Origin: Rhizobiales bacterium IMCC20636
Lineage (GTDB): Bacteria > Pseudomonadota > Alphaproteobacteria > Rhizobiales > GCA-2746425
Direction: 5' to 3'
Assembly (NCBI GenBank): GCA_016865015.1
Contig: CP018226.1
Location: 4,557,001 to 4,621,000, forward strand
Length of the DNA: 64,000 nucleotides
Part shown: in pieces, positions 2,318 to 19,589 of the stretch
How the letters are laid out: each line of letters opens with the position of its first letter
How positions within the stretch are numbered: the stretch's first letter is position 1
Position numbers and translations under genes: made by a program
The notes under the pieces: model-generated
Told to the model about the DNA's origin: nothing
The model's database searches: none
The model's input: the letters and a program-made list of their open reading frames with translations, nothing else

Positions 2318-5300
2318 CTATTCCGCTGCAGGCGCATTGATTTTGCTGTGGCCAGCCTTGGCCAATTGCTGGAGCAGGCTGCGCAATGCTGCAGGCTTGA
2401 GTGGCTTGTTCAGGACAGGCATGTTTTTAGCGCTGGCTTCATCCCGAACGCGTGTTGTTCTGTCCGCTGTGATCAGAATGCCGGGCAATCCACTTTCAAA
2501 ACGCCATCTCAATCGCGCCAGAACCTCGACCCCTCTGATGTTCCCATCAAGATGATAATCGACCAGAATAACGTCTGGCAGATCACCAGACCGCTTGCGC
2601 TCGGCTTCAATGACAATGGTTGCCTCTTCCTGATCTGCAGCGGTCAGGACACGGCAACCCCAGCCTTCCAGGAGATTGCGCATCCCATCCAGAATCTGTG
2701 CCTCATTGTCGATACACAGAATGAGTGTTCCTTCCAGCCGGGCCAGCGGAACGGCTGGTTTTGGCTTTGCTTTCTGCGGCAATGCCAGCGCACGCGCCAA
2801 TGGCAGCGTCACCGAGAAACGTGTGCCCATGCCAATCCCTGATTGAAGGTCAATGGGATGTTTCAGAATTTCAGACAGTCGCTCCACAATTGACAGCCCC
2901 AGCCCCAGCCCAGGCCCCGCCTTGATCCCGGATTCCAGTCTCTGGAACTCGCAGAAAATCTCTTTCTGCTTGGAAAAGGGAATGCCTATCCCCGTGTCAT
3001 AGATATGCAGCGTCGTGGTGTGCTCGTGTCGACGACAGCCCACTGTTACCCGGCCACGCGGCGTGTATTTGATAGCGTTTGAAATCAGGTTTTGCAGCAG
3101 ACGGCGCAGCAAACGACGGTCCGAACGCACGTGAAGGCCGCTTTTGATGACATGAAATTTCAGGTTCTTGGCCTCAGCCATCGGCGAAAATTCGACCTGC
3201 AATTGTTCCAGCAATTCATCCAGCCGGACCACGGTGATCTCGGTGGTGGTGGCCCCCGCGTCCAGCCGGGAAATGTCCAGCAATGTGCTCAGGATGTCTT
3301 CAACAGACCCCAGAGCTGCTTCAATATTGTTGGCGCTTTTCAGATGACGGTCATCTGTCAGGATTTCAGACAATGCGGTGGTATAGAGCCGGGCTGCATT
3401 GAGAGGCTGCAGAATGTCGTGACCGGCGGCAGCGAGAAACTTGGTCTTGCCGACATTAGCCTCATGCGCCATCTGGCTGGCAAGCTCCAGTTGGCCGTTC
3501 AGACGGGTCAGTTCTTCGGTGCGGACCTTGACCCGTTCTTCCAGCGCCTGATTGATTTCTTCCAGTGTGCGTTTGTTGGCAGCCCGTTCACTCACATCCG
3601 TGTAGGTCACGACGATTCCACCATCGGGCATACGGTTGGTCCGCACTTCCAGAATCTGTCCGGTTGGAAAAAAGGTCTCTTCGAAAATATTGGGCGCTTC
3701 GACCAACTGCTTCAAACGGCTGTCAATCATGGTGGCAGGATTGCCAGATCCAAAATGTCCGTTCTCAACACCATGGCGAACGACATCGCCCAGTGACGTT
3801 CCAACCTGACCGAATTCTACCGGCAGATTGAGGAAACCCCGGAAATGCTGATTCCAGCAAATCAGGCGCAAATTGATATCGAACACGGCAATGCCCTGCC
3901 AGACATGATCCAATGCACTCTGCAGAAGGTCCCGATTGTATTGTATGGCCTGCGAGGCATCATCCAGCAATTCGATTGGCACGCGCCCTTTCGCGTCAGT
4001 CTTTTGCATCAGCAGGGAAAACACCAACCGCGACGATGCCGCTCCAATTGCCGACGCCAGCAACTGTTCTGAGTGACTGATCAAAGCAGAATCAGCCATT
4101 ATATAGGGTGTCAGCTCGACGCTACTTTCTTTGGCATAATTCTTGAAAGCGCGTTCTGTGCGTTCGGCCCCCAGATAACGGGAAATGGTTTGCTGCAATT
4201 CTTCAACGGTCACATTGCCGCGCCATGATTTGCGGTGAGCCAGCAAGGTACCTTTGTTTGGCAGATTGCTGAGGACAAAACTGTCTGCCTGCAACCGCTC
4301 CAACGGAACTGGCTCACGTGTCAGGGAGAACGCCACATAGCCAAATATATTTGCCGCCAGAGACCAAAGCACCCCATGAGTCAAAGGGGGCAAATCGCTG
4401 CCAAACAGATGTTCAGGACGCAGCCAGGGCAATTGGAAAAGCCCATCTGTCATCAGCGCCGAGACTGCGCCACTGCTATGGGCAAAGCTGGGCAGCAGTA
4501 ATGTGTAGAACCAGACCGCAAACCCCATCACCATCGCGGCAATTGCGCCCCGTGCCGTGGCCCCGCGCCAGAACAGGCCACCCAAAAAGGCCGGTGCCAG
4601 TTGGGCTATGGCGGCAAATGACAGAAGCCCGATGGAGGCAAGCGCGGCGCTGCCACTGGTCAGTTCGTAATACAGATATCCCAGAGCCAGAACAAAAAAG
4701 ATGGCCACCCTGCGAACCATCAGAACGGTCTGGGTCATGTCCTTGCCAACAAATTGTTCCGGCGAGCGCCGTAACAGAACCGGCAGAACAATCTGATTGG
4801 AAATCATGATCGACAAGGCAACGGCCGCCACAATAACCATGGCTGTTGCAGCAGACAGGCCACCAATAAAGGCAATGATGACAAACCCGACGGACTCGGT
4901 CGACAGGGGCAGTGCGACCACAAACAGATCGCCGCTGACATCCGGCCCAAGGGTCAGACGGCCTGCAATCGCAATGGGCACAACAAACAGATTGATGGCC
5001 ACCAGATAAAGCGGAAACAGCCACGCAGCGCGCTTCAATTCACTTGCATTGTTGTTCTCGACCACAATGACGTGGAATTGCCGTGGCAACAACAAAACGG
5101 CAAAACTGCTGAGCAGCGTAAAGACAGCCAGTTGGCCCCAATTCAGGGACCCTTCATAAAGTGGCAGAATACCACCTGCCTCTGCAGCGGCCTTCAACAG
5201 CGCAGCGGGACTGTCGAACAGAACGGTCAGCACAAACACGCCAATACTGACAAAGGCGATCAGCTTGACCAGGCTTTCAGTTGCCACCGCCAGCATCAGA

Positions 5301-5905
5301 CCTTCCTGATGCTCTGTCGCATCGCTGTGGCGGGTGCCGAACAGGATGGCAAAAAGGGCCATTGCGATGGCGACGAGCAAGGCGATGTCGCCGATGATCG
5401 GCAATGACAAATCCGCTGCCTGACCATTTTCCGAATTCAGGACCGTCGCTGCCAATGAGGTCGAAACGGCTTTCAACTGCAGGGCAATATAGGGAACCGA
5501 GCCAACAACTGCGATCAGCGTCGCCACCATCGCCACTGTCTGGCTCTTGCCATAGCGGGCGGAAATGAAGTCGGCTACCGATGTGATGCGCTGGGTTTTG
5601 GAGACCGCAACGATGTGGCGCACCAGCGGGTATCCGAGCGTGAAGACAAGTATGGGCCCGCTATAGATGCCGACAAAATCCCAGCCGGTTCTGGCGGCCA
5701 GACCAACCGACCCAAAAAATGTCCAACTGGTGCAATAAACCGCCAATGACAATGCGTATAATGTGGGGCGCGCAGAGAACCGCTTTTTGAAGCCTGAGTT
5801 AAGGTTGGAACGACGTCGTGACGCACGGTCGCCATAGGTTGCAACCAAAAACAAGAGCACAATGTAAAACAGCGCCGCAGCAACGACGACCCAACCGGCC
5901 AGCAT
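2318..5905 (-). CDS. crbS: CrbS/CbrA-type hybrid sensor kinase with symporter domain
   Basis: A protein of 1195 residues in the usual order of this family: an N-terminal SSS transporter-like domain of about 500 residues with many membrane helices, a STAC-type linker, a PAS region around residue 690, a coiled coil, then HisKA with His829 in AAAGHDILQPLNAARL, an HATPase domain with GLGLGLSIVERL, and a C-terminal receiver with Asp1116 in ILVDYHLD. Start ATG 5905 follows GGAGGAGAAGGGA; a TTG further up would lie inside that ribosome site. Related kinases are CrbS/MxtR (acetate switch) and CbrA (carbon/nitrogen, histidine). The partner LuxR regulator next door and the symporter gene nearby favour CrbS. 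Ligand sensing or transport by the SSS domain is not shown by sequence. Confidence 0.88.
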   Translation of the reverse strand: MLAGWVVVAAALFYIVLLFLVATYGDRASRRRSNLNSGFKKRFSARPTLYALSLAVYCTSWTFFGSVGLAARTGWDFVGIYSGPILVFTLGYPLVRHIVAVSKTQRITSVADFISARYGKSQTVAMVATLIAVVGSVPYIALQLKAVSTSLAATVLNSENGQAADLSLPIIGDIALLVAIAMALFAILFGTRHSDATEHQEGLMLAVATESLVKLIAFVSIGVFVLTVLFDSPAALLKAAAEAGGILPLYEGSLNWGQLAVFTLLSSFAVLLLPRQFHVIVVENNNASELKRAAWLFPLYLVAINLFVVPIAIAGRLTLGPDVSGDLFVVALPLSTESVGFVIIAFIGGLSAATAMVIVAAVALSIMISNQIVLPVLLRRSPEQFVGKDMTQTVLMVRRVAIFFVLALGYLYYELTSGSAALASIGLLSFAAIAQLAPAFLGGLFWRGATARGAIAAMVMGFAVWFYTLLLPSFAHSSGAVSALMTDGLFQLPWLRPEHLFGSDLPPLTHGVLWSLAANIFGYVAFSLTREPVPLERLQADSFVLSNLPNKGTLLAHRKSWRGNVTVEELQQTISRYLGAERTERAFKNYAKESSVELTPYIMADSALISHSEQLLASAIGAASSRLVFSLLMQKTDAKGRVPIELLDDASQAIQYNRDLLQSALDHVWQGIAVFDINLRLICWNQHFRGFLNLPVEFGQVGTSLGDVVRHGVENGHFGSGNPATMIDSRLKQLVEAPNIFEETFFPTGQILEVRTNRMPDGGIVVTYTDVSERAANKRTLEEINQALEERVKVRTEELTRLNGQLELASQMAHEANVGKTKFLAAAGHDILQPLNAARLYTTALSEILTDDRHLKSANNIEAALGSVEDILSTLLDISRLDAGATTTEITVVRLDELLEQLQVEFSPMAEAKNLKFHVIKSGLHVRSDRRLLRRLLQNLISNAIKYTPRGRVTVGCRRHEHTTTLHIYDTGIGIPFSKQKEIFCEFQRLESGIKAGPGLGLGLSIVERLSEILKHPIDLQSGIGMGTRFSVTLPLARALALPQKAKPKPAVPLARLEGTLILCIDNEAQILDGMRNLLEGWGCRVLTAADQEEATIVIEAERKRSGDLPDVILVDYHLDGNIRGVEVLARLRWRFESGLPGILITADRTTRVRDEASAKNMPVLNKPLKPAALRSLLQQLAKAGHSKINAPAAE

Positions 5906-6058
5906 TCCCTTCTCCTCCAAGGGGACTTCTTTTTTCTACTGTAACCGCGGAACCGCGCCGTTGAAAGTCATTACATAGACAATGATCTACCTTGCGTTTA
6001 TTCTAAAACCCGTTACATGCTCTCGATTCCTTAGACGAGCAAAACACAAGGGGTAGTC

Positions 6059-6561: not shown

Positions 6562-7440
6562 TCAGGCACCAAACCTTGGTTCCGGCACGCCCTTTATGCC
6601 CAGATCATAGATTGCAAACAGGCTGCCCCGCATCCGGCCATCACCGGGAAAACGCGGCAAAGGCGGCTTGGCCATCGATGTGACATAGAGCACATCCATA
6701 TTCGGTCCGCCAAAATTCACACTTGTTACTTTCTTGACCGGCATGTCTATGACGCGATCTATCGTTCCGTCTGGCGCGTAGCGGATCAGTTTTCCATCAT
6801 AAACCAAGGCATTCCAAAGATACCCTTCGGCATCGACGGTTGATCCGTCCGCCGCACCACCATTGGAGTCATCAACCTTGGCAAAGGTTCTGCGGTTCGA
6901 CACATTTCCCGTTTCAATATCATAATCATAGGCCCAGATTTCGCCGGTCCAGGTATCCTGAAAGTAGAAAATCTTGTCGTCCGGGCTGAAACATGGCCCG
7001 TTGGAACAAATGATCCCCTCATCAATCTTGGTAACGGAAAAATCCGGGTCAACCCGATAGAGAGCGCCGTTGGCACCTTCTTCCATCGTATCCATGGATC
7101 CGGCAAAGAACCGTCCTCTGCGGTCAACTTTACCATCATTCAACCGGTTTGCCGGCAGATTGGGTTCGGGGTCGTGGAACAGTTCACACTCACCGGTGTT
7201 GAAATCCAGGCGATGGAAACCACCCTGCAGACTGACAATTGCGCCTTCGCCATCTTTTCGCAGGGCCAGAGACCCGATCTTGCCCGGCACGTCCCAAGCG
7301 CGGACTTCCGTGCCTTCAGCAGTGCATCTGAAGACACGTCCATCCATCGAATCGATGAAATAAAGCCTTTGTTGCTCCACGTCCCAGACAGGGCCTTCGC
7401 CCAGCGTGGTTTTGACATCCAGCAATACTTCTATCCGCAT
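6562..7440 (-). CDS. SMP-30/gluconolactonase-family sugar lactonase
   Basis: A 292-residue protein of the SMP-30/regucalcin beta-propeller family, which hydrolyses sugar gamma- and delta-lactones with a divalent metal in the centre of the propeller. Family marks are LGEGPVWD (metal-ligand Glu near 14), RLNDGKVDRRGRFFAGSMD (metal-binding Asn and substrate residues), SNGPCFSPDD, and DGSTVDAEGYLWNA (metal-ligand Asp). There is no signal peptide, so it is cytoplasmic. It is the last gene of operon 1 and fits hydrolysis of a lactone made by an upstream dehydrogenase. A GGGAGAAAG ribosome site precedes the ATG. Confidence 0.92.
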   Translation of the reverse strand: MRIEVLLDVKTTLGEGPVWDVEQQRLYFIDSMDGRVFRCTAEGTEVRAWDVPGKIGSLALRKDGEGAIVSLQGGFHRLDFNTGECELFHDPEPNLPANRLNDGKVDRRGRFFAGSMDTMEEGANGALYRVDPDFSVTKIDEGIICSNGPCFSPDDKIFYFQDTWTGEIWAYDYDIETGNVSNRRTFAKVDDSNGGAADGSTVDAEGYLWNALVYDGKLIRYAPDGTIDRVIDMPVKKVTSVNFGGPNMDVLYVTSMAKPPLPRFPGDGRMRGSLFAIYDLGIKGVPEPRFGA

Positions 7441-7469
7441 GATGCTTTCTCCCTATATGTTTTTGTTGC

Positions 7470-8414
7470 TTAGAATGCGACCTGATCGCCACCTTTGAGT
7501 GACAAGATTTCACGTGCCTCGTCCGGCGTTGCAACCGCAAGGCCCAGCCCTTCGATAATACTGCGCACCTTGGCAACCTGCACTGCGTTGGACTTTGCCA
7601 ATTCGCCCTTGCCAGCCCAGATGCTGTCTTCCAGTCCCACACGCACATTGCCACCAAGGGCCGCAGCCTGAGCGGCGATGCGGAACTGATTGGAGCCTGC
7701 GCCCAGAACTGACCAGCGGAAATCATTCCCGAACAGACGATCAGCGGTGCGTTTCATATGCATGACATCTTCGGGATGCGGTCCGATGCCGCCCAGCAGG
7801 CCAAACACGGACTGCACAAAGAAGGGCGGTTTGACCAATCCGCGCTCTGCGAAATGCGCCAGATTATAGAGATGGGAAATGTCGTAGCACTCAAACTCGA
7901 AACGCGTGCCGTTTCCGTAACAGGTCTCCAACACATACTCGATGTCCTTGAAAGAATTGCGGAACACCAGATCGCGAGAGCCTTCCAGATGGGCGCGTTC
8001 CCAATCATGCTTGAATTCAGTGTATTTGTTCAACAGTGGGTACAGTCCGAAATTCATCGACCCCATATTGAGCGATGCGACTTCAGGCTGGTAGGTGGCT
8101 GCCGGGCTGACCCGCTCGGCCACACTCATATAGGGGCTGCCGCCGGTGGTGATGTTGATCACAGCATTGGTGCCCTGCTTGATGCGCGGCAGGAACGGCG
8201 CAAACGCCTCCGGTGTCTGATCCGGCTGGCCAGTTTCAGGATTACGCGCGTGCAAATGCAGGATGGAGGCACCAGCCTCTGCTGCCGCAATCGCCTCGCT
8301 GCAAATCTCATCGGGGGTGATCGGCAAATATGGCGTCATGCTGGGTGTGTGGATTGCACCCGTGATCGCACATGTAATGATGACCTTGCCGTTTTGTGCC
8401 GTAGTTGAACTCAC
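7470..8414 (-). CDS. BKACE-family beta-keto acid cleavage enzyme (DUF849)
   Basis: A 314-residue TIM-barrel protein of the DUF849/BKACE family. Known members condense a beta-keto acid with acetyl-CoA and split it to acetoacetate and a new CoA ester (for example 3-keto-5-aminohexanoate or dehydrocarnitine). The zinc-binding HxH motif is seen in ILHLHARNP, and the C-terminal GLEDSIWAGKG matches the family Glu-Asp motif. The start is GTG at 8414, whose GTGA overlaps the stop of the preceding dehydrogenase by four bases, so they are co-translated. Its place in a sugar-import operon next to a 3-hydroxy-acid dehydrogenase suggests a sugar-derived beta-keto acid as substrate, which would be new for the family (inference). 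Confidence 0.9.
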   Translation of the reverse strand: MSSTTAQNGKVIITCAITGAIHTPSMTPYLPITPDEICSEAIAAAEAGASILHLHARNPETGQPDQTPEAFAPFLPRIKQGTNAVINITTGGSPYMSVAERVSPAATYQPEVASLNMGSMNFGLYPLLNKYTEFKHDWERAHLEGSRDLVFRNSFKDIEYVLETCYGNGTRFEFECYDISHLYNLAHFAERGLVKPPFFVQSVFGLLGGIGPHPEDVMHMKRTADRLFGNDFRWSVLGAGSNQFRIAAQAAALGGNVRVGLEDSIWAGKGELAKSNAVQVAKVRSIIEGLGLAVATPDEAREILSLKGGDQVAF

Positions 8415-9355
8415 GATCCGAACTCCTTGTTTGCTTTGTTTTTATGTTCAATCAATGCCATTAACCGGCGGTCGCGCCAAGCTTGCCTCTCGGCCAACTG
8501 GGTTTCATCCAGTCGGACACGGCGGGCGGCTTCCACCTTGTCCAGAACCGGACCGGTCCAGTTCGGGCGGCCGGGTATGGCGGTATTCACCCCATCATAC
8601 ATCTGCGCATAGCGGTTGACGTAGTCTCGCACGCCACCTGGTGCATTGAGATCAATCGTCTCAAACGGGCCCATGAAGGCCCATCGCAGGGCGAGACCAT
8701 CACGAATACCAATGTCGACATCTTCCGCGCTGGCATAGCCTTCTTCGACCAGGCGAAACGCCTCATCCAGAAGCGCGCCCTGAAGCCGGTTCATCAGAAA
8801 ACCGTCAACTTCCTTGTTCATCACGATGGGAGCCTGCCCCAGAGATGTCATGAATTCCGCCGTGCGGCTTACCACATCGGCAGATGTGTCCGGTCCCGGT
8901 ACGATCTCAACTGCCGGCACCAGATAGGGCGGGTTGATCGGGTGAACGACAAGGCAGCGGGCAGCCCCTGCCAGCCCCTCGAACATGGCTGATGGCAAAA
9001 GAGCGGATGTGGAACTGGCCAGCACGGTTTCTGGTTTGGTGGCCGCATCAAGCTGCGCAAAGATCGCACGCTTGCTGTTGATCTCTTCCGGTGTGTTTTC
9101 CTGGACATGTTCGGCTTCCGAGACACATTCCTGTAATGTATCGCAAACCCGGAGGCGCGCCAGAATACTATCCGTGTCCTCCTCCAGCAGGCCAGAGCCG
9201 CGTAAGTTTTCAAAAATATCAGGCAAGAACTCCCGAACTGACCGGGCGACATCTGCCTTCGCGTCCCAAAGCGTCACTTCGCAGCCGCCGCGCAGAAAGC
9301 TGATTGCCCAGGCCCGGCCGATCAACCCACATCCTATAATCGCTACACGTGTCAT
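8411..9355 (-). CDS. 3-hydroxyacyl-CoA dehydrogenase-like, lambda-crystallin/L-gulonate 3-dehydrogenase type
   Basis: A 314-residue NAD-dependent dehydrogenase. The Rossmann fingerprint is VAIIGCGLIGRAWA at the N-terminus, followed by SSTSALLPS and HPINPPYLVPAVEIVPG, then the C-terminal helical domain with VDGFLMNRLQGALLDEAFRLVEEG and MGPFETIDLNAPGG. The ending with ERQAWRDRRLMAL is typical of lambda-crystallin, whose mammalian form is L-gulonate 3-dehydrogenase; L-carnitine dehydrogenases are also close. It would oxidise a 3-hydroxy acid to a beta-keto acid, just what the next gene product (BKACE) consumes. The genes overlap by four bases. The exact substrate is not readable. Confidence 0.88.
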   Translation of the reverse strand: MTRVAIIGCGLIGRAWAISFLRGGCEVTLWDAKADVARSVREFLPDIFENLRGSGLLEEDTDSILARLRVCDTLQECVSEAEHVQENTPEEINSKRAIFAQLDAATKPETVLASSTSALLPSAMFEGLAGAARCLVVHPINPPYLVPAVEIVPGPDTSADVVSRTAEFMTSLGQAPIVMNKEVDGFLMNRLQGALLDEAFRLVEEGYASAEDVDIGIRDGLALRWAFMGPFETIDLNAPGGVRDYVNRYAQMYDGVNTAIPGRPNWTGPVLDKVEAARRVRLDETQLAERQAWRDRRLMALIEHKNKANKEFGS

Positions 9356-9358
9356 GGT

Positions 9359-10153
9359 TCAGAGCGTCTCCACATTGCCATCAACGGCCAGTGACTGGCC
9401 GGACAAATTGGCACCGGCATCCGACAGAAGGAAAGCTGTCATGGTGGCCACATCCTCCATTGTCACCATCCGGCGCAGGGAGATTTTGGCAAGGTAATCC
9501 TGCTCCATTTCGTCATAGCTGACACCGGTGGCGTTGGCACGATCGCGGATAACACCCTCCATTCGGGCACCGGAGACGATTCCCGGCAAAATCGCATTGA
9601 CGCGAATATTGTCCGGGCCCAGCTCTTTTGCCAGACTTTGGGTCAGGCCGATCACACCAAATTTGGCTGCGGAGTAAGGTGTTCGGTAGGCATAGCCATA
9701 TTTTCCTGCAACAGACGACATGCTGACGATCGACCCGCCTCCCGATGCTTTCAGCATTGGCACCGCATTGTGCGCACAGATGAACTGGCCGGTGAGACAG
9801 ATATCGATACAGCGCCGCCAGCTTTCGACCGAAATGTCCTCAACGCCGCCGGTCGGGCCTGCAATGCCCGCATTGTTGATGAGCGCATCAAGCCCGCCAA
9901 GCTCTGACTTTACTTCCTGAAAGAAGGTTTCCACAGCGGCTTCATCCGATACATCGGTCAAACGGGTCATGCAGCCACCCAGTTCCGCGCTCGCCAATTC
10001 CAGTGCCTTGGCATCGACGTCACAGAGCGCCAGTCGTGCCCCCTGACTGTGGAGCTCGCGTGCAATGGCCAATCCGATACCATTGGCACCGGCGGTGACA
10101 ACCACGCGCTGCCCCGACAGACCGGGCAAATTGAGTTTCTTTGGTTCAGACAT
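9359..10153 (-). CDS. Short-chain dehydrogenase/reductase (SDR)
   Basis: A 264-residue classical SDR with the cofactor motif TAGANGIGLAIA, the NNAG motif (INNAGIAGPTGG), the active-site Ser in SMSSVAGKYG and the YxxxK pair in PYSAAKFG. An acidic residue at the end of the second strand (CDVDAKAL) indicates NAD rather than NADP. Within the operon, between the importer and the lactonase, it may oxidise the imported sugar to a lactone or act on a later hydroxy intermediate. It lies two bases after the permease stop. Confidence 0.9.
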   Translation of the reverse strand: MSEPKKLNLPGLSGQRVVVTAGANGIGLAIARELHSQGARLALCDVDAKALELASAELGGCMTRLTDVSDEAAVETFFQEVKSELGGLDALINNAGIAGPTGGVEDISVESWRRCIDICLTGQFICAHNAVPMLKASGGGSIVSMSSVAGKYGYAYRTPYSAAKFGVIGLTQSLAKELGPDNIRVNAILPGIVSGARMEGVIRDRANATGVSYDEMEQDYLAKISLRRMVTMEDVATMTAFLLSDAGANLSGQSLAVDGNVETL

Positions 10154-10155
10154 GG

Positions 10156-12234
10156 CTAGTGGCTCCTTTTTTCACGCAAGGCAATGACGGCGGCTAGAAT
10201 GACAAGGCCGAAGAAAACCGACCGGAAAGCAAAGGGAAGTGTGGTGCCAGCAAGCAGGGTTTGCATTGAGGTGAGCAACAGAGCGCCGCCAAACATACCC
10301 AGATAATGCCCGCGTCCACCGGTAATCAGTGCGCCGCCCACAACAACTACAGCGATTGATGGCAAGAGGTAACCATCTCCCATGCCCAGGCTCGCCTGCC
10401 CCGAAAACCCGGTGAGCAATATGCCGACAAGGGCCGCACATATCGCCGAAAGAATATAGACCAGGATCAGAGTTTTGCCAGTATTGACACCTGACAGACG
10501 AGCAGCTGTTTCACTGTTGCCGATAGCATATACCCGGCGCCCGAACGCCGTGCGGCCAAGCAGCAGCACTGCGGCCAGCACAAACAGGCCCAAGGTGGGA
10601 ATGATCGGGGTGATGCCGAGAATTTCTCCAGTCATCATCCAGCGCAATGCGGGAGCTGCAAAACCGTCTGGCGTACCATTTGAGTAGATCAGGGCGACGC
10701 CTTGCAGCAAGCCGTTCATTGCCAGCGTGACCACGATTGGTGACAGGCCCAAAGCCACAATCCCCAAACCGTTCAGGAAGCCGATGATGGTGGCCACAAT
10801 CAACACCACCGGGATGGCGTAGATCAAAGCGCCGTCGGCACCCTGCACAATGCCAGCCACCAGAATACCAGACAGGCCAATCGTCCATGGTATCGACAGA
10901 TCAAGCCCGCCGGTCAGGATGACGGCTCCCTGCCCAAGGGCCAGAATGACCAGAAATGATGACAGAACAAACAGGGCATCCCAATATCTAAATGAGGTGA
11001 ACACATTTCCAAAGGAAGCCTGAGTGATCAAAAGCACAACAAACAGGCAGACGAAGGCCGGAAGCGTGTAGCGCATCAAGGCCGAATTGCGTGTCCAGAA
11101 ACCCGGTCCAGCCTTGCGCGATGGTGAGACTTTTGCGGCAAAGTCCAACCGTTTGTCGGCATAGGGCCGTTGTGTGATCAGCATCTGCTTGCTGCGTGCA
11201 GAGATGTAGTCTCTTGCGCCACGCAGTTTGTGCGCAAGCGGACTGCTGGCCGAGAGCGATCCGGCCAGAACCGCCAACATCAGCACCGTACTTTCGGCGA
11301 TGGTGGAATAGTAGGCCGAGATGTTCAGCGACAGCAGAATGTTTACAACAATCATCAGGATATAGGCGCCAAAGATCGTGCCCACCAGGCCGCCCTTGCC
11401 GCCGCCAAGACGGGAGCCTCCGATGACCACCGCAGCAAATGTCGGCAACAGCAGAGAATTACCGACCAGAGGATCTCCCGACCCGGTTTGCGCGCTGACA
11501 AACACACCGGCCAGTCCATAAAGCCCGCCAGCCAGCACATAGGTGAAGAAGATCACCCAACCGGTTCGCAGGCCCGTCGCACTCGCAGCTTCCGGATCGC
11601 TGCCCACAGCATACAGGGCCAAGCCGAACGGCGTGCGCTTCAGCCAAAGCCAGAGCAACACAACCACGCCTAACAGAACGACGGAAGCGGGGAGCAGATT
11701 GGGGATGGCATCTCCCATATAGGCCGAACCGATGGAAGGAGAGACAAACCCGCCAGGCTTGTCCATCACCAGCAGGGTCAGCCCCTGAACGATGAACATT
11801 GTCGCCAGAGTCACTACAATGGGTTGCAGGCGCAGATAGGCGATGAAAAATCCGTTGAAGGCCCCGACGGCCATACCAACCGCGATGCCAATACCGGTCC
11901 ATAGCGGCACCGAGGCCGCGAAATTGGTCGGATCCATCTGAGAGGCCAGAACCGCATTGACCAGAGATATGACAGCCCCTGCGGACAGATCAAAGCCGCC
12001 AGACAGGATGACAAGCGTCTGGCCCATAGCGGCCAGCGCTGTGGTGGTTCCGCCACTGGCCAGAAATGAAACGTCAAAATATGACAGCGGGTATGGGCTG
12101 ATCGTGCTGTTCAATGTCAGCAATGCAATCAAGACCGCCAGCGCCGTCAACATCGGGCGGCTGCGCTGAAGGCCGCGCATGAAGCGCGGTTTCACAGGCT
12201 TTGCTTGGGAGGGAGCTGTGTCTGTGTGGTTCAT
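10156..12234 (-). CDS. ABC sugar permease, two RbsC-type domains fused
   Basis: A 692-residue inner-membrane protein made of two tandem RbsC/AraH-type permease domains (about 30-335 and 395-690) joined by a polar linker of about 60 residues. Both halves carry the same family segments: AMGQTLVILSGGFDLSAGA in the first and LGQGAVILTGGLDLSI in the second, and later VVIGGSRLGGGKGGLVGT against VVVGGALITGGRGHYLG. The usual RbsC is about 320 residues and works as a dimer, so this is a covalently joined heterodimer. The start overlaps the ATPase stop (ATGA). No separate permease gene is present in the operon. Confidence 0.92.
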   Translation of the reverse strand: MNHTDTAPSQAKPVKPRFMRGLQRSRPMLTALAVLIALLTLNSTISPYPLSYFDVSFLASGGTTTALAAMGQTLVILSGGFDLSAGAVISLVNAVLASQMDPTNFAASVPLWTGIGIAVGMAVGAFNGFFIAYLRLQPIVVTLATMFIVQGLTLLVMDKPGGFVSPSIGSAYMGDAIPNLLPASVVLLGVVVLLWLWLKRTPFGLALYAVGSDPEAASATGLRTGWVIFFTYVLAGGLYGLAGVFVSAQTGSGDPLVGNSLLLPTFAAVVIGGSRLGGGKGGLVGTIFGAYILMIVVNILLSLNISAYYSTIAESTVLMLAVLAGSLSASSPLAHKLRGARDYISARSKQMLITQRPYADKRLDFAAKVSPSRKAGPGFWTRNSALMRYTLPAFVCLFVVLLITQASFGNVFTSFRYWDALFVLSSFLVILALGQGAVILTGGLDLSIPWTIGLSGILVAGIVQGADGALIYAIPVVLIVATIIGFLNGLGIVALGLSPIVVTLAMNGLLQGVALIYSNGTPDGFAAPALRWMMTGEILGITPIIPTLGLFVLAAVLLLGRTAFGRRVYAIGNSETAARLSGVNTGKTLILVYILSAICAALVGILLTGFSGQASLGMGDGYLLPSIAVVVVGGALITGGRGHYLGMFGGALLLTSMQTLLAGTTLPFAFRSVFFGLVILAAVIALREKRSH

Positions 12235-13772
12235 GCAGCGGTCTCTTGCGCTGTCCGGGCCGAGCCGAGGGCGGCCTGAATAATTCCGGTTTCAGTAATT
12301 TCGTCGCCGTCCAGCCATGTGGTCATGCGGCCCTCATAGAGCACGCCCACGCGGTCCGACATATGCACGAGTTCCGGCACTTCGGTCGAGTGGAACAGAA
12401 TGGCGCCACCGGCAGCCACGAACTCACTCATCAAGGTGTAAAGCTGTTGCTTGGTGCCAACATCGATCCCGCGTGTTGGGTCGAACAGCAACAGGATGCG
12501 GCTTTGCGCGACCAGCCATTTTGCAATTGCGATTTTCTGCTGATTGCCGCCCGAAAACGCGCTGACCGGCAGATATTGCGCTCGCTCATCAACTTCGACA
12601 GCTTCAAAGGCCTTTGCCGTGGCTTCGGCCTCATCTTCAGAATTGAGCAACAGACCTTTGCGAAACCGGGCGATCACTGGGAGGCTGGCATTTTGCTTGC
12701 CGGTCAAGGTCAGGAACAAGCCTTCGGTCTTACGCTCTTCCGGCACCAGTCCGATGGCAATCGAGGGATGCAGCGCATCTGCAGGGGAGCGCAGATGCAC
12801 CGGAGTGCCGTCCACAATCATCTCACCGCTGTCTATATGGGTGTCGCCGAAGAGAGCGGTGAAAAGATCCTTCTGGCCCATGCCTTGCAACCCGGCGATG
12901 CCCAGTATTTGTCCCGGATGCAGTGCAAAACTTATGTCACGAAGCTTGTCCCCCGCAGACAGATTATGCGCCTCGAGCACCGGTTTTTCCTGATGTGCCG
13001 GTTTTGAATCACGCGGCGGAAACGTTGCTTCAACCGACCGGCCGATAATCATTTCTATGATTTCGTCGTCCGTGATCTCATCGACCCGCGCTGATTTGAC
13101 ATGTTTGCCATTGCGCAGGATCGACAGTGTGTCACAGAAGGCGCGGACTTCCGGTATCCGGTGGGAGATGAACAGGATGGTCATGCCGCGCGCCTTGGCG
13201 TCAGCGATAACCCAGCCAAGCCAGTCGACATCATCGCCGGTGAGAGCAGATGTTGGTTCGTCCAGCAACAGAATGCGCGGGTCACGGAAAATCGCGCGCG
13301 CAATTTCAATCTTCTGACGCGTGGCCAAATCAAGTTCACTGGCCAGTGCACCCAGATCAACGCTCAGCCCGACGGACTGGAAATGTGCGGAGACCTGACG
13401 CCCGGCTTCGCTCGATTTGAGCATGAATAATGGATTTTTGGGCCCTTTGGGCAGCATCATGTTTTCCAGAACAGTCAAGTCAGGGATCAGCGTCAATTCC
13501 TGAAATGCAGTCTGAATTCCAACCGCGTGTGCGTCACGCGGAGATTTGAGTGTGATCGGCTTGCCGTCGATCCGAATGGTGCCGTCATCAGGGCGGATCA
13601 GGCCGGAGAGCAACTTCATTGTGGTCGACTTGCCAGCGCCATTTTCGCCCAACAGCGCATGAACGGCCCCCGGGGCCACGCTGAAACTTACATCATCATT
13701 GGCAATGGTTGGACCATAAGCCTTGCGGAGATTGGTCACTTCGATAATCGGATGGCTTTCCGCAACGGACAT
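12231..13772 (-). CDS. Sugar ABC transporter ATP-binding protein, RbsA/MglA type
   Basis: A 513-residue protein with two tandem ABC domains. The first has Walker A GENGAGKST, the signature-like ATRQKIEIARAIF and Walker B LLLDEPTSAL. The second has a degenerate Walker A (GLQGMGQKDLF), the signature FSGGNQQKIAIAKWL and Walker B LLLFDPTRGID. The weak second nucleotide site and the FDPT variant are usual in this family. It powers import by the fused permease encoded immediately downstream and the binding protein encoded upstream. Confidence 0.95.
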   Translation of the reverse strand: MSVAESHPIIEVTNLRKAYGPTIANDDVSFSVAPGAVHALLGENGAGKSTTMKLLSGLIRPDDGTIRIDGKPITLKSPRDAHAVGIQTAFQELTLIPDLTVLENMMLPKGPKNPLFMLKSSEAGRQVSAHFQSVGLSVDLGALASELDLATRQKIEIARAIFRDPRILLLDEPTSALTGDDVDWLGWVIADAKARGMTILFISHRIPEVRAFCDTLSILRNGKHVKSARVDEITDDEIIEMIIGRSVEATFPPRDSKPAHQEKPVLEAHNLSAGDKLRDISFALHPGQILGIAGLQGMGQKDLFTALFGDTHIDSGEMIVDGTPVHLRSPADALHPSIAIGLVPEERKTEGLFLTLTGKQNASLPVIARFRKGLLLNSEDEAEATAKAFEAVEVDERAQYLPVSAFSGGNQQKIAIAKWLVAQSRILLLFDPTRGIDVGTKQQLYTLMSEFVAAGGAILFHSTEVPELVHMSDRVGVLYEGRMTTWLDGDEITETGIIQAALGSARTAQETAA

Positions 13773-13801
13773 GCGCGACCTCCCCCAAGGCTCTCAAAAT
13801 T

Positions 13802-13828
13802 GCGCCCGACGCTTAGTGCGTCGGGCGC
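13802..13828. other. Intra-operon hairpin after the binding-protein gene
   Basis: A perfect 11-base-pair GC-rich stem (GCGCCCGACGC, loop TTAGT, GCGTCGGGCGC) sits between the binding-protein stop and the ATPase start. Such hairpins in other importer operons protect the upstream message or cut read-through, giving more binding protein than ATPase. A T-run is lacking. Confidence 0.7.
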
Positions 13829-13850
13829 TTGCTTGCGAATCTGTGGCAGC

Positions 13851-14975
13851 CTAGTCTTCGGGCTGACCAACAAGTGCGGCGTTCAGGCCAACTTCCGGCA
13901 GGTCAGCCGAGAAGATGGAGGCGAACCAGCCCGGATTGGAGACAAGAGACGGGAGGAAGGCATTGCAGCCAGCCTTTTGCTCATCCCAGGAACCGGTTTC
14001 GCACAGCTGCACTGTTTCGCTGGTTACAAGTGGCAGCGGCAGCGTGGTGAGATCTGCGATTTCCTTGCCATCCAGTACATCGACAGCCAGTTTGAAGGCC
14101 AATGCGCCGGAGTAAGGTGGCGATGCATAAGATATCCTCGGAGCACCAAGGGGTGCATAAGGGCTGGCAGCACCTTCAACGTCAGTGCCGGCAGGCAGCA
14201 TCTGGATACGTCCGCCATTCGAGCCTTCGCCTGCACAGGGCAGCAGGGCATCTGCGGCAATGCCGGCTTCAAGCTGCATGGCGTTTGCGGTAAAGCAACC
14301 GACCTGCATCCACAATCCGTCAACATCACTCCAGTCGCGGGTCGCCAGAATCTTGGACAGTTCGGTGCGTGCTACAGCCTGGCTCCACATGCCGATCGCT
14401 TCGCCAACAACGTTGATGCCTTCATGCTTGGCAAAGACTTCTTTTGCAGCTGCAGTCCGGGCAGCGTCAACAGAGGTCCCCGGAACGCCGGTCATCAGAA
14501 CGATGTCGCCTTCGCCACCCATCTGCTCCACCAGCCATTCAGCGGTGACGCGACCAGCTTCATCCTGATCGATTGTCACATTATAAGCGCAGGGCTCGGT
14601 AATTTCACCGTCATAGGCGATGATGGTCACGCCCTTGTCACAGGCGTTCTTGACAACATTGTTCAGCGCAGTCGGCGAAATCGGATACACCACAATGGCA
14701 TCCGCTCCGGCTTGCACCATGGCATTGATCTGCTGGATCTGACGCTGGGCATTGGGACCGGCGACCTGCACCCGCAGGTTTACCCGGTCTGCGTAATTTG
14801 AATGCGACGCAATTGCCTTGACCATATTGGCGGCCTCGGCCTGCCAATCATTTCCGATGTAACTCATTGACAAATAAACATCATATTTGTCCTGAGCAAT
14901 AACGGGTGCAGTCGCAGACAACGCCAATAGACCTGCCGCCATGGCCGTGCTGGCCACAGTTTTGAAATTAAACAT
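13851..14975 (-). CDS. Periplasmic sugar-binding protein, RbsB family
   Basis: A 374-residue type I periplasmic binding protein. A signal peptide (MFNFKTVASTAMAAGLLAL then cleavage after VIAQ) is followed by two lobes with RbsB-type segments: QIQQINAMVQAGADAIVVYPISP, GVTIIAYDGEI and GDIVLMTGVPGTSVD. Start ATG 14975 has GGGAGGAAC just upstream; the frame is open further but encodes no sensible N-terminus. It is the first gene of operon 1, divergent from a GntR regulator. At 374 residues it is longer than RbsB (about 295), as in some binding proteins for larger or acidic sugars. The ligand is unknown. Confidence 0.92.
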   Translation of the reverse strand: MFNFKTVASTAMAAGLLALSATAPVIAQDKYDVYLSMSYIGNDWQAEAANMVKAIASHSNYADRVNLRVQVAGPNAQRQIQQINAMVQAGADAIVVYPISPTALNNVVKNACDKGVTIIAYDGEITEPCAYNVTIDQDEAGRVTAEWLVEQMGGEGDIVLMTGVPGTSVDAARTAAAKEVFAKHEGINVVGEAIGMWSQAVARTELSKILATRDWSDVDGLWMQVGCFTANAMQLEAGIAADALLPCAGEGSNGGRIQMLPAGTDVEGAASPYAPLGAPRISYASPPYSGALAFKLAVDVLDGKEIADLTTLPLPLVTSETVQLCETGSWDEQKAGCNAFLPSLVSNPGWFASIFSADLPEVGLNAALVGQPED

Positions 14976-14992
14976 AGTTCCTCCCAAATATA

Positions 14993-15042
14993 GACTTTTG
15001 TATATAATGTTTATATTGATTATTGATATTTGATCAAAAGTC
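14993..15042. promoter_or_regulatory. Divergent promoter/operator region of operon 1 and GntR gene
   Basis: A very AT-rich stretch between divergent genes with an 8-base inverted repeat, GACTTTTG at 14993-15000 and CAAAAGTC at 15035-15042, and a small palindrome TTGATCAA at 15030-15037. Position and symmetry suggest binding of the neighbouring GntR/FCD regulator. This is seen symmetry plus inference; no footprint is known. Confidence 0.45.
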
Positions 15043-15097
15043 AACGGCTTTTAATTTCAGCCATTCGCGGATAAAAGGGTTCAAAAAAGGTTTCTGG

Positions 15098-15781
15098 ATG
15101 AATTCCACCTTAAGCACCATCAAGCCTGTTCGGCGCGAGACGCTGCAAACGGCGGTATATGAACAATTGTGCGAACTCATTCTGGAGGGCAATCTTGCAC
15201 CAGGGGAATCCATCACCGTTGCAAGCATCGCCAAGGCTTTTGATGTCAGCCCGATGCCGGTCCGCGAAGCCATCACCCGCCTCATGGCGGCAGGCGCGCT
15301 GACGGTTGTGTCAGGTCGATCCATTGGGGTGCCACAACTGGATCGAAGTGTATTTACCGACCTTCGCAACGTCAGGCTGGAAATTGAAGCTGTGTCATTG
15401 CGCTGGGCCATAGAAAACGCAACAGAAGCGTTTCACCGCGATCTCGACGACAAGCTTAACGCCATGATTTCGGCTGAGCAAAAAGGAGAAGTCAAAGGCT
15501 TCATTCGTTCCAATTACGGTTTCCATTTTGCAATCTACCGCCAGGCGCACTCTCCGGTCCTGCTGGAAACGATCAGCAGAATCTGGTTACGCATCAACCC
15601 GTATTTTCATCTTCTTCAGCAAAGCGGACACTACAGGATTTCCAACGACCAGCATCGCGAAATCGTCGAGGGGATCGTCCAGCGCGACGCAAACAAGGCG
15701 ATTGAGGCGCTGAGAAACGATATCAACAGCGCCTTCAACACGATGGTTGCTCAACTGGGACAAAAACCTGCAGTCGGCTGA
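15098..15781 (+). CDS. GntR-family regulator, FCD (FadR) subfamily
   Basis: A 227-residue regulator. The N-terminal winged helix (about 15-80) shows the GntR pattern VYEQLCELILEGNLAPGE, then SIAKAFDVSPMPVREAITRL. The C-terminal all-helical FCD ligand domain has the metal-site type pattern FRSNYGFHFAIYRQAHSPVL and a later NDQHREIVEGI. ATG 15098 follows AAAAAAGG. It diverges from operon 1 and probably represses it until a pathway acid binds; FCD regulators often sense sugar acids or organic acids, which would fit a lactonase pathway. Confidence 0.9.
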   Translation: MNSTLSTIKPVRRETLQTAVYEQLCELILEGNLAPGESITVASIAKAFDVSPMPVREAITRLMAAGALTVVSGRSIGVPQLDRSVFTDLRNVRLEIEAVSLRWAIENATEAFHRDLDDKLNAMISAEQKGEVKGFIRSNYGFHFAIYRQAHSPVLLETISRIWLRINPYFHLLQQSGHYRISNDQHREIVEGIVQRDANKAIEALRNDINSAFNTMVAQLGQKPAVG

Positions 15782-15848: not shown

Positions 15849-16937
15849 CTAGCGCACGGCCCGGCCGTCTGACTCGCGGAAAAAATGAACTTCACCGCTG
15901 TTCACATACACATCAACCATATCATCGGGCTGGGGTCTGGATCTGGATGAGAACTGTGCTGTGAACTTTTCACCCCCGACTTCACCAATCAGAAGCGTGT
16001 GAGGGCCCAGTGGTTCAACATCGATGACTTTTATCTGGATTTTTGGGCCGACATCGGCATTTTCGCTGGTGTGTTCGGGGCGAATTCCAAGACTGAAGCG
16101 TTCGCCGGAAAACTCTGCCAGAGCCGGGATCCGGCTTTTTGGGATCGGGAAAGATGCACCGGCATCGCTCTCAAACACGAGATCATCGCCGGTTCCCGAC
16201 AATTTTCCTTCCAGCATGTTCATGCTCGGTGCTCCAATGAAGGAAGCGACAAATTTGTTCACCGGGAATTCATACAGGGTGATCGGATCGGCCGCCTGCT
16301 CGATGATTCCGGCATTCAGCACGACAACCCGGTCGGCCATGGTCATGGCCTCTACCTGATCGTGGGTCACATAGACCATTGTTGTCTTCAAGCGCCGGTG
16401 CAACTGCTTGATTTCAACACGCATTTCGACACGCAATTTGGCGTCAAGATTTGACAGCGGTTCATCAAACAGGAAAACTTCAGGATCGCGGACAATCGCC
16501 CGTCCAATCGCCACCCTTTGACGCTGTCCGCCCGACAGGGCAGCCGGTTTGCGATGGAGATAATCTGTCAGGTTCAAAACCCGGGCCGCATTCGCGACCG
16601 CCTCGGCTGCGATCTTCTTATCAACACCACGGACTTTCATGCCGTAGCCGATGTTTTCCTTGACCGTCATGTGGGGATAGAGCGCGTAGCTCTGGAACAC
16701 CATGGCACAATCTCGCAGCCCGGGCCGCAGATCGGTGACATCGCGGTCCCCGATGAAAACCTTGCCGGCTGATGTGGTCTCCAACCCTGCGATCATCCGC
16801 AAGGTGGTCGATTTGCCACAACCGGAGGGACCAACGAGCACAACGAATTCGCCATCCTCGATTTCCAGGTCCAAGGGAGGGATCACCTGGACATCCCCGT
16901 AAGATTTTTCAATGTTTTTCAGTCTGATATTAGTCAT
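15849..16937 (-). CDS. ABC transporter ATP-binding protein, UgpC/MalK type
   Basis: A 362-residue CUT1-type ATPase: Walker A GPSGCGKSTT, Q-loop AMVFQSYALYP, signature LSGGQRQRVAIGRA, Walker B EVFLFDEPLSNLDAKLR, H-loop YVTHDQVEAMTM, and a C-terminal TOBE/OB region for regulation. ATG 16937 has GAGGGAAA just upstream; the frame is open 25 codons further without support. It is the last gene of operon 2 and energises the MalF/MalG-type permeases encoded upstream. Confidence 0.95.
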   Translation of the reverse strand: MTNIRLKNIEKSYGDVQVIPPLDLEIEDGEFVVLVGPSGCGKSTTLRMIAGLETTSAGKVFIGDRDVTDLRPGLRDCAMVFQSYALYPHMTVKENIGYGMKVRGVDKKIAAEAVANAARVLNLTDYLHRKPAALSGGQRQRVAIGRAIVRDPEVFLFDEPLSNLDAKLRVEMRVEIKQLHRRLKTTMVYVTHDQVEAMTMADRVVVLNAGIIEQAADPITLYEFPVNKFVASFIGAPSMNMLEGKLSGTGDDLVFESDAGASFPIPKSRIPALAEFSGERFSLGIRPEHTSENADVGPKIQIKVIDVEPLGPHTLLIGEVGGEKFTAQFSSRSRPQPDDMVDVYVNSGEVHFFRESDGRAVR

Positions 16938-17006
16938 CGATTTCCCTCGATAAAGCCAGATATGCGGGCGAAAAAATTCCCGGATTTCGGTTTCATTTGT
17001 CGCCCG

Positions 17007-17035
17007 CTGCATGACGCCAGTGCGGCGTCATGCAG
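17007..17035. other. Intra-operon hairpin after the binding-protein gene
   Basis: A perfect 12-base-pair stem (CTGCATGACGCC, loop AGTGC, GGCGTCATGCAG) lies between the stop of the binding-protein gene and the start of the ATPase gene, the same relative position as the hairpin at 13802-13828. It probably sets the binding protein to ATPase ratio by transcript protection or partial termination. Confidence 0.7.
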
Positions 17036-17055
17036 GGAGGTAACTCCGAACTTTT

Positions 17056-18510
17056 TTATTTGGCTTCCAGACCCATGGATGCACGGTAAGCTTCAAGCTG
17101 AGACTCGCGTCCAAACTCTTCGGTCAGCTCATCCCAACCAGCCGCAACTGTGTCCAGTGCCTCCTGAGGCGTAACGTCACCTGCCAAAGCCTTGGAAAGT
17201 TCGATTTCCAGGATTTCGGTGTAGGAGAAGTAACCTGGCAGACGCATATCGAGGGCAACATTGTCAGCAGTGACTGACGCTTGTTGTGCACCCAGATATT
17301 CAGCAGCTTCACGCTCAGAGAAGATCGAAGCCCAGCGTTCCATATTGGTCGTATGCGAGATCCGATACGGGTTGACGCCTGTGCCACCGGTCACGGCAGC
17401 CTGTCCGGAAACTTCCGGGCTGGACAGGAACGAGATGAAATCCCAGGCAGCTTCCTGGTTTCCAGAGGATTGCGGCACAGCAGCCTGCCATCCACCGAAT
17501 GCCATGAATGGCGTTTTCACGACTTCGTCATATGTGTCCCACTCACCGGTTACATGGTTCCAGATTTCATTTGAACTTGGAAGCATCGCAGAACCAACAT
17601 TGCCGTTGACTTTGGACTGTGCAGGATCCGCTGCAATAACACCGGTATCACCCCAACCAATTGACTGGGCAACCTGGCCACCAGCAAAGGCAGCATTCAC
17701 TTCACCAAAGGAGAAGTTCAACGCAGCCGGTGGGGCAAGTTTGGAGGCCCGAATGTATTCTTCAAGCCCGCGAAGCCAACCTGGATTGTTGATCTGCGCA
17801 TCCATGGTTTCAGGATCAAAGAACATGGAACCCGGGTTGTCCGGATGGTTGGTGTACCCGGCGGCGTGGCTGAAGAAGAACCAGAATTGCTGGCCACCAC
17901 GACGGAATGCTTCAGCCGTGCCATAGACACCTTCAACATCGTTCTGGAAGTATTCCGCGATGTCGAGATACTGGTCCCAGGACACAGGAATCGCAAGGTC
18001 GTAGCCATATTTGGCTTTGAACGCTTCCTGATGGGCCTTGTCTTCGAACAGGTCGATCCGATAGGTGTAAGTGTGAACGTCACCGTCCATTGTCTGTGAC
18101 AGAACCTTGCCGTTCCAGATCATCAGCGCTTCACGGTACACCGGTGCGATGTCCATCCAGTCGTCGCCCTGCTGGTATTTGGCAGGCATTTCGGTCAGAT
18201 ATGGCGTGAAATCGGGGGCCCAGGCAGGCGCAAATGCGATTACGTCAAATGCATCGTCGCCTGATGTCAGGGTCGTCACGATTTTCGGATAGAGTTCCGA
18301 CCAGGGAAACTCGACAACTTTCACAGTGCCACAGGTCTTTTCGGTCCAGCCATCTGCAGCCAGCTGAAGTGCTGACGCGATGTATGGGCCGGTTTGTGTT
18401 GTGGCAGTGATTTCAATGCCAGTGAAGTCAGGCGAACAGTCTGCCATTGCGACCGATGCCGACAGGGACAAGGCTACAAACGCAGCCGAGGAATACATTA
18501 GATTTTTCAT
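17056..18510 (-). CDS. Periplasmic solute-binding protein, family 1 (MalE-like)
   Basis: A 484-residue extracellular solute-binding protein. The signal peptide (MKNLMYSSAAFVALSLSASV, cut near AMAD) is followed by the typical family 1 layout, with VVEFPWSELYPKIVTTLTSG early, aromatic-rich substrate segments and WDFISFLSSPEVSGQ near the C-terminus. It delivers substrate to the MalF/MalG-type permeases encoded just upstream. At 484 residues it is larger than MalE. Nearby deoC and kinase genes point to deoxyribose or a related pentose or nucleoside as cargo (inference). Confidence 0.92.
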   Translation of the reverse strand: MKNLMYSSAAFVALSLSASVAMADCSPDFTGIEITATTQTGPYIASALQLAADGWTEKTCGTVKVVEFPWSELYPKIVTTLTSGDDAFDVIAFAPAWAPDFTPYLTEMPAKYQQGDDWMDIAPVYREALMIWNGKVLSQTMDGDVHTYTYRIDLFEDKAHQEAFKAKYGYDLAIPVSWDQYLDIAEYFQNDVEGVYGTAEAFRRGGQQFWFFFSHAAGYTNHPDNPGSMFFDPETMDAQINNPGWLRGLEEYIRASKLAPPAALNFSFGEVNAAFAGGQVAQSIGWGDTGVIAADPAQSKVNGNVGSAMLPSSNEIWNHVTGEWDTYDEVVKTPFMAFGGWQAAVPQSSGNQEAAWDFISFLSSPEVSGQAAVTGGTGVNPYRISHTTNMERWASIFSEREAAEYLGAQQASVTADNVALDMRLPGYFSYTEILEIELSKALAGDVTPQEALDTVAAGWDELTEEFGRESQLEAYRASMGLEAK

Positions 18511-18560
18511 AGTTCTCTCCTTGTTATTATTTGGTAGGCACTAAACTTCCGGACTGTCTT

Positions 18561-19589
18561 TTATTTTACTGCTCCCATCAGAAGTCCGGATCGCATCATT
18601 CGGCCAAGCAAACCGGCGATGATAACCATTGGCACGATTGCTACCAGGGCAGCAGCCGAAATCGCCCACCATTCATCTCCGCGCTGGCTGTTTTGACCGG
18701 CGACGAGAATTGGTAGCGTTTGCCATTTCGAATTTGTCAGGAAGAGCGCAAACAGAAACTCGTTCCAGACGAAGGCAAGTGTAATCACGAAGGTCGCGAT
18801 AAGCCCGGGCTTGGACATCGGTAGTACGATGCCGAAGAAAATCCGCCAGGTGGGGACATTGTCCACCATTGCCGCCTCTTCCACGTCCAGCGGCAGACTG
18901 GCAATAAAATCACGCATCAACCAAATCACGATCGGCAGCGAAAATGCGACATAGGCCAGTGTCAAACCAAAATAGGTATCGGTCATTCTGAAGCCCAACT
19001 TGCCCATCTCGGTGTATAAAAGGAACAGCGCAAAGGCGACGACAATCGGCGGAAACAGGCGCTGGCTGACGAACCAGAAAACAATGTCGTCATTGCCCAA
19101 AACCGGTCCAGGCAGCTTGAATCTATTGATGAAGATCGACAGTGCCAGCGCAATGCAGAACGCAATGATCGATGCAGTTGCAGGGCCGATGCCCAGCACT
19201 TCACGACCGAACAGGAAGCCGCCCATTGCGACAACGAAAAACGTAATGCCGCTCATCAGGCGCACACGGAAGGTAAACCGGACCAAGGCATAGGCGGCCA
19301 TTGACCCGATGATCGTGGCGATAACAGAAGCCGACAGCGCGACAATCGTTGAGGACCAGAAGTTCGAGAAGAACTCGCCGCGAATACCCGAGAACAGCTC
19401 GGTCCACGCTTTCAGGGTCGGCTGAAAATCAACAAATGGCAGGTAGGTCGGGCCTCCGACCACATCCACCGGACTTTTCAATGATGTTATGGCCACCCAA
19501 TAGAGCGGGAACAATGCGAATGTCAGCCATATGAGGCAGCCGAACAAAACCCAATGCCGTTTGGCACCCCTTAAATCCCGGACGCTCAT
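18561..19589 (-). CDS. ABC sugar permease, MalG type
   Basis: A 342-residue permease with about six to seven hydrophobic helices. The EAA loop that contacts the ATPase is visible as EEAAMVDNVPTWRIFFGIVLPMSKPGL. The N-terminal helix ALFPLYWVAITSLK is typical of MalG-like subunits. Its start overlaps the stop of the MalF-type gene by four bases. An extra hydrophobic stretch in the middle makes it longer than the usual 280 residues. Confidence 0.93.
   Translation of the reverse strand: MSVRDLRGAKRHWVLFGCLIWLTFALFPLYWVAITSLKSPVDVVGGPTYLPFVDFQPTLKAWTELFSGIRGEFFSNFWSSTIVALSASVIATIIGSMAAYALVRFTFRVRLMSGITFFVVAMGGFLFGREVLGIGPATASIIAFCIALALSIFINRFKLPGPVLGNDDIVFWFVSQRLFPPIVVAFALFLLYTEMGKLGFRMTDTYFGLTLAYVAFSLPIVIWLMRDFIASLPLDVEEAAMVDNVPTWRIFFGIVLPMSKPGLIATFVITLAFVWNEFLFALFLTNSKWQTLPILVAGQNSQRGDEWWAISAAALVAIVPMVIIAGLLGRMMRSGLLMGAVK

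Follow-up and report, generated by a model that had tools for sequence, protein, structure and literature searches.

A two-domain RbsC-type permease encoded as a single chain in a conserved proteobacterial BKACE operon

The ribose permease RbsC is presumed to be a homodimer. Its importer, RbsABC, combines a double-NBD ATPase with an intact Walker B motif in the second NBD (Walker B2) with a permease of the BPD_transp_2 type, for which there is a single gene. In the tandem-pair systems of the CUT2 family, two unlike RbsC-type permeases are encoded beside a double-NBD ATPase and a binding protein, and which permease half pairs with which NBD is difficult to assign in the CUT2 importers that have two such genes. 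A different layout is found in FhuB, the permease of the E. coli ferrichrome importer (PDB 7lb8), which is described in an excerpt of PMC8660799 as two 10-helix halves in one chain with a central path. The excerpt of Zheng et al. 2013 (PMC3654945) covers 17 CUT2 proteins with 7-12 predicted TMSs and gives FhuB as the 20-TMS case.

Here, we describe an RbsC-type permease from Rhizobiales bacterium IMCC20636 that, like the tandem-pair systems, has two unlike permease domains next to a double-NBD ATPase and a binding protein, but in which one gene and one chain replace the two genes and two chains of those systems. The window, i.e., the whole stretch of DNA that was analyzed, comprises 64,000 nucleotides of contig CP018226.1 (positions 4,557,001 to 4,621,000). 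The chain very probably constitutes the whole membrane part of an ABC importer of the CUT2 type, joined once from a heterodimeric pair and FhuB-like in its arrangement. The transporter type itself is well known; what is new here is the FhuB-like one-chain arrangement in the CUT2 family. Members of the fused clade are annotated as "ABC transporter permease" in public records, and among the matches listed from the open-licence literature, no description of a fused CUT2 permease was found in the titles and abstract openings. The "fused permease" of PMC3281065, as far as its excerpt goes, is a TRAP system, and that of the excerpt of PMC2847192 is a TRAP COG together with a permease-ATPase COG.

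The fused permease and its two halves

The open reading frame at 10156-12234 (minus strand) starts with ATG and has 692 codons without an internal stop. Its parts are as follows, with the domain borders of the halves set by a profile built in this analysis:

10156-12234, minus strand: fused CUT2/RbsC-type permease, 692 aa (open reading frame; two BPD_transp_2 stretches; one ORF in relatives)
11251-12177, minus strand: N-half permease domain, residues 20-328 (custom profile; sister to the first genes of eight tandem pairs)
11098-11250, minus strand: basic linker, residues 329-379 (model confidence below 50 at residues 360-373)
10165-11097, minus strand: C-half permease domain, residues 380-690 (custom profile; sister to the second genes of those eight pairs)

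The initial annotation had read this frame as two unlike RbsC-type halves in one 692-residue chain, joined by a polar linker, and both points were borne out. Pfam found two stretches of BPD_transp_2 (209.6 bits against a cut-off of 26.8), and an alignment of the two halves gives 30.9% identity in 278 columns, with the conserved stretches of the family kept in each. The linker of 51 residues is polar and basic; in 60 fused homologs (alignment A3) it spans 48-57 residues and contains on average 10.0 K/R versus 3.6 D/E. Because the linker is basic, the positive-inside rule would place it on the cytoplasmic side, and both halves would therefore keep their usual orientation. The permease chain might conceivably be cleaved at this linker.

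By its BPD_transp_2 permease domains, and by the two-NBD ATPase and Peripla_BP_4 binding protein of the operon, the system falls among the CUT2/BPD_transp_2 importers. None of the named CUT2 equivalogs of NCBIfam (RbsC, YjfF, AraH, GguB, LsrC/D, MglC) was reached, the best scores being 252.4 against 398 for RbsC and 237.4 against 363 for YjfF. The permease is not of the LivH/Urt type according to the NCBIfam models for LivH (19.7 against 379), UrtB (49.2 against 250.3), and UrtC (45.5 against 296.2).

Also in agreement with the initial annotation, no other permease (0) was detected by Pfam among the eight gene products of the operon that were tested. Most simply, the membrane part is a fixed heterodimer, and two fused chains would be unable to pair with each other. 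The initial annotation had presented such a heterodimer as the outcome of the fusion; it stands as the simplest reading, but not as a product of the joining, since the tandem-pair relatives indicate that the heterodimer is older. Nor is the single-domain homodimer the sole normal state of this family, as had been supposed, given the relatives with two different adjacent permease genes (YtfT/YjfF and LsrC/LsrD of E. coli, and the 18 unfused pairs in our tree).

Operon content and candidate substrates

The permease gene lies in a run of seven genes on the minus strand, with a divergent regulator gene beside it:

15023-15781, plus strand: divergent GntR/FCD regulator (Pfam; beside the operon in 76/81 loci)
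13851-14975, minus strand: periplasmic substrate-binding protein, Peripla_BP_4 (Pfam)
12231-13772, minus strand: ATPase with two NBDs in one 513-aa chain (two ABC_tran stretches in Pfam; motifs)
9359-10153, minus strand: SDR oxidoreductase (open reading frame and profile matches)
8411-9355, minus strand: lambda-crystallin-like 3-hydroxyacid dehydrogenase, 3HCDH family (profile matches, solved relatives)
7470-8414, minus strand: BKACE, beta-keto acid cleavage enzyme (NF053538, 547.4 bits, cut-off 430)
6562-7440, minus strand: SMP-30/gluconolactonase-type protein, a probable lactonase (Pfam)

The order of the run is binding protein, two-NBD ATPase, fused permease, SDR, hydroxyacid dehydrogenase, BKACE, and SMP30-type protein, with successive intergenic gaps of 78, -4, 2, 3, -4, and 29 bases; the permease and ATPase genes thus share 4 bases, and the SDR gene starts 2 bases after the permease gene. 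For the binding protein, the ATG at 14975 appears preferable to the TTG of the listed ORF, which runs to 15044. In the eight nearest unfused pairs, the binding-protein gene is instead placed last.

Across 81 loci, the neighborhood of the fused permease contains the binding protein in 77, the SDR in 78, the hydroxyacid dehydrogenase in 75, BKACE in 77, the SMP30-type protein in 78, and the GntR regulator in 76, counts that depend on score thresholds and include some loci truncated at the end of a contig. BKACE is retained in L069 and L161, two loci among the most distant of the fused ones; no BKACE ORF was seen in L066, one of the eight closest relatives. The fused permease also provides a marker gene for a conserved BKACE operon. 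At the unfused locus L073 of the same genome, a metallo-beta-lactamase-fold protein, a 3-hydroxyacid dehydrogenase, and a histidinol-dehydrogenase-like gene adjoin (12404-15630), and no BKACE match was found within the stretch examined.

This gene content suggests the uptake of a hydroxy acid, a lactone, or a 2-deoxy-sugar acid, which is the least certain point of our analysis. In this route, the lactonase would open the substrate, oxidation would give a 3-keto acid, and BKACE would cleave this acid with acetyl-CoA. The BKACE of the operon scores above the cut-off of the NCBIfam model for 3,5-dioxohexanoate:acetyl-CoA acetone transferase (NF053538; 547.4 against 430 bits), whose name mirrors an in vitro activity within a promiscuous enzyme family. 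Among solved structures, the best relatives of this BKACE are 3e49 and BKACE15 of Paracoccus (8rip, 8rio); the excerpt of PMC11961710 names 3-ketohexanoate and 3,5-dioxohexanoate among the assayed substrates of BKACE15 and interprets its gene context as aromatic-compound breakdown. Further leads come from excerpts on deoxyribonate use in Pseudomonas, where a lactonase-SDR-BKACE set occurs with MFS transporters (PMC6365646), and on triacetate in phloroglucinol breakdown (PMC10470551). None of the triacetate, deoxyribonate, and BKACE15 leads is singled out by these data. A hydroxylated lactone or acid is the most likely substrate, with a 2-deoxy-sugar acid or a 3,5-dihydroxyhexanoate-like compound as candidates.

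Alternatively, the system could be an ordinary monosaccharide transporter of the ribose/xylose-like kind, in which case the enzymes of the operon would be incidental. Profiles of ribose, xylose, and galactofuranose systems do match, below their cut-offs, and the nearest solved relatives of the window binding protein are mostly sugar-type by name, at low similarity. We consider this unlikely, as the same five kinds of neighboring genes recur in 75-78 of the 81 loci and BKACE is kept even in the distant L069 and L161.

Several other genes of the window deserve mention. A minus-strand run at 15849-24953 encodes two BPD_transp_1 permeases, a PfkB kinase, a double aldehyde dehydrogenase, and a DeoC-type aldolase, with an ABC ATPase and a binding protein recognized by eye; it could represent a deoxy-sugar route beside the BKACE operon. 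The 794-aa protein at 21526-23910 (minus strand), with two Aldedh stretches, is apparently another tandem-domain protein. At 2318-5920 (minus strand), a 1200-aa protein appears by eye to join a transporter-like membrane part to a hybrid histidine kinase, and is presumably CbrA-like.

Architecture and ATP sites

An AlphaFold model built from the 60 fused sequences of alignment A3 reached a pLDDT of 80.7 and a pTM of 0.79; an earlier model from 10 sequences was weaker (pLDDT 72.9). In the model, the order of helices is closely similar in both halves, and the pLDDT falls below 50 around residues 360-373. When both models were compared with the PDB using Foldseek, FhuB was the sole match under E 0.001, with a loose superposition (TM-scores 0.44/0.47, rmsd 16.4). 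With VIA-align, FhuB (7lb8_B) aligned over 525 residues between positions 21 and 687 (Z 14.0, rmsd 5.8) and was the only row with more than 500 residues aligned. The single type-II permeases HmuU and BtuC aligned over 248-277 residues, roughly the size of one half, with a higher Z of 15.8-16.5 and in ranges spanning the N-half into the C-half; the packing of the two halves is thus a prediction of the model. The model thus predicts a FhuB-like architecture, with two type-II importer TMD halves in one chain, albeit with a loose superposition.

Searches by sequence gave 0 PDB matches for the window permease, and a profile of 61 fused sequences yielded only 4 weak matches, to a beta-hydroxyacid dehydrogenase. 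Pfam reported only BPD_transp_2 in the fused permease at E 0.001 and no FecCD domain, which we take to be the Pfam family of FhuB. E. coli RbsC (L164, 2789-3754) likewise gave only weak matches to unrelated proteins when compared with the PDB by phmmer. The BPD_transp_2 permease family may be without a solved member.

One double-NBD ATPase and two TMD halves make up a complete ABC core. One fused permease would therefore pair with one double-NBD ATPase chain and the periplasmic binding protein, in a 1:1 stoichiometry of the two chains, and the permease and ATPase might purify as a 1:1 complex. Four-half assemblies, or a homodimer of fused chains in which one half of each lies outside the pore, are compatible with the sequence and with a single-chain model. 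Such assemblies seem improbable in light of the core being already complete with two halves, of the alignment of the model with FhuB over both halves, albeit loose, and of the conserved stretches present in both.

The fused permease and FhuB share the two halves in a single chain but differ in several respects. FhuB works with two FhuC chains, according to the excerpt of PMC8660799, whereas the operon described here encodes one double-NBD ATPase chain; the substrate of FhuB is a siderophore, whereas a hydroxy acid or lactone is suggested here. FhuB is also attributed to an intragenic duplication in the excerpt of PMC3654945, in contrast to the joined heterodimeric pair proposed for the fused permease.

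In the window ATPase, NBD1 has a normal Walker A (GENGAGKST) and a normal Walker B (LLLDEP). The signature of NBD2 is normal (FSGGNQQ), but its Walker A is without the Lys and its Walker B reads LFDP. Judging from these motifs, the second ATP site is probably dead, and hydrolysis would occur at one of the two sites, to which NBD1 would contribute Walker A and B and NBD2 the signature. In the ATPases of fused operons, the Walker B2 Asp is replaced by F or Y and the Glu by D in all 92 readable rows (93 rows, one gapped). The ATPases of the unfused two-permease loci show the same loss in 20/20 cases (Asp to F, N, Y, or A; Glu to D), so the asymmetry was not caused by the fusion. The D-E pair is retained in all three E. 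coli ATPases compared (RbsA, YtfR, and LsrA); because YtfR and LsrA also serve two-gene permeases, the loss of Walker B2 is no rule for all two-permease systems.

A fixed N/C order in both chains together with one degenerate ATP site would make this system a natural test object for asymmetric coupling. Tentatively, and in a reading that is less likely than not, the family could be a widespread, one-chain heterodimeric CUT2 importer of single origin, in which the TMDs and the NBDs are each fused as a pair and locked in register, with one working ATP site. It would then be a natural asymmetric type-II importer that feeds a non-sugar hydroxy acid or lactone to BKACE.

Origin and distribution of the fusion

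The initial annotation proposed finding the relatives of each half, and this check was informative: each half is nearest to one gene of the tandem pairs, in the same order, and one such pair lies in this genome (locus L073, 7341-8333 and 8330-9355, overlapping by 4 bases). A tree of 98 domains separates the halves of the fused proteins into two clades, one of N-halves (100/98) and one of C-halves (100/99). The N-half clade is sister (99/94) to the first genes of eight unfused tandem pairs, and the C-half clade is sister (99/95) to the second genes of those same eight pairs. The tree sampled 24 of the 93 fused loci, 18 complete unfused pairs, and 14 other rows, with a midpoint root only; the N-type and C-type labels of unfused genes were assigned from gene order, and two of the 20 unfused loci (L070 and L203) gave one gene each, as the partner failed the domain filter. 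The deepest branching within the fused clade differs by half (L161/L197 first in N, L069 first in C), a mild conflict.

Because the two clades are sister to the first and second genes of the same pairs, an existing heterodimeric pair appears to have been joined once. The heterodimeric permease is older than the fusion: two tandem genes, N-type then C-type, would have been joined, and the fused gene inherited since. That a single permease gene was duplicated internally, the origin proposed for FhuB in the excerpt of PMC3654945, could be entertained from the fact that both halves belong to one family and are 31% identical. It is very improbable here, as the halves do not group together: one joins the first genes and the other the second genes of the same pairs, both with starred support.

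The fused permease is real, of old standing, and kept across many proteobacteria. Full-length single-ORF homologs in other genomes are 47-90% identical. Among 101 relative genomes (our own included), there were nine full-length single-frame matches of 64-100% identity and one more at 48%; nine of the ten were confirmed as single ORFs in larger stretches (L061-L069), the tenth being the window ORF. Since the open frame of a search may span a stop, fused status was derived from the DNA itself. When 84,980 species genomes were scanned with a pattern, 200 relatives were recovered. The best 80 of them all have one ORF with the N-half then the C-half, a set ranked on the full-length match and hence biased toward fused genes; a Caballeronia plasmid locus shows the same order in one ORF. 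It is important to note that some loci are very probably one genome twice (e.g., L063/L097 and L139/L196, whose contigs are equal in length), and rows do not equal independent genomes.

As full-length ranking favors long matches, single-half queries were used on samples of genomes of the order and the phylum, with at most five candidates per genome scored at E 1e-60. The C-half query matched in 23 of the 397 genomes from the order. The C-half was 52-100% identical in 21 of these genomes, and the N-half lay in the same stop-free frame in all 21; the other four C-half matches, at 42-45% identity and each in a different genome, are separate genes, and two of these four genomes have a fused copy as well. 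With the N-half, five of 398 genomes of the phylum matched with an N-half at least 50% identical, all five fused, and three genomes are common to the two sets. When 299 genomes of the phylum were searched with a profile, four matches exceeded 800 bits, and these span both halves in one frame; the next match was at 273 bits. No split-gene member of the fused clade was seen in these single-half and profile searches of the order and phylum samples.

The initial annotation had named a missed stop or an assembly join of two separate genes near 11100 as what would undo the fusion; although unfused pairs are tandem and some overlap, such that a sequencing slip could join them, and although two other permease pairs of this genome lie in one frame with a single stop between, this has practically no chance of being correct, given that independent assemblies, drawn from many genera, read through the same junction and have 48-57 linker residues there, and that among the separate genes seen, identity reaches about 46% at most.

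Two long frames of this genome (767 and 701) were considered as further fusions and rejected, each being two open frames split by one stop. These two BPD_transp_2 pairs, at L071 (about 7115-9415) and L072 (about 6719-8821), are one step from fusion, each lying in one frame with a single stop between the two genes.
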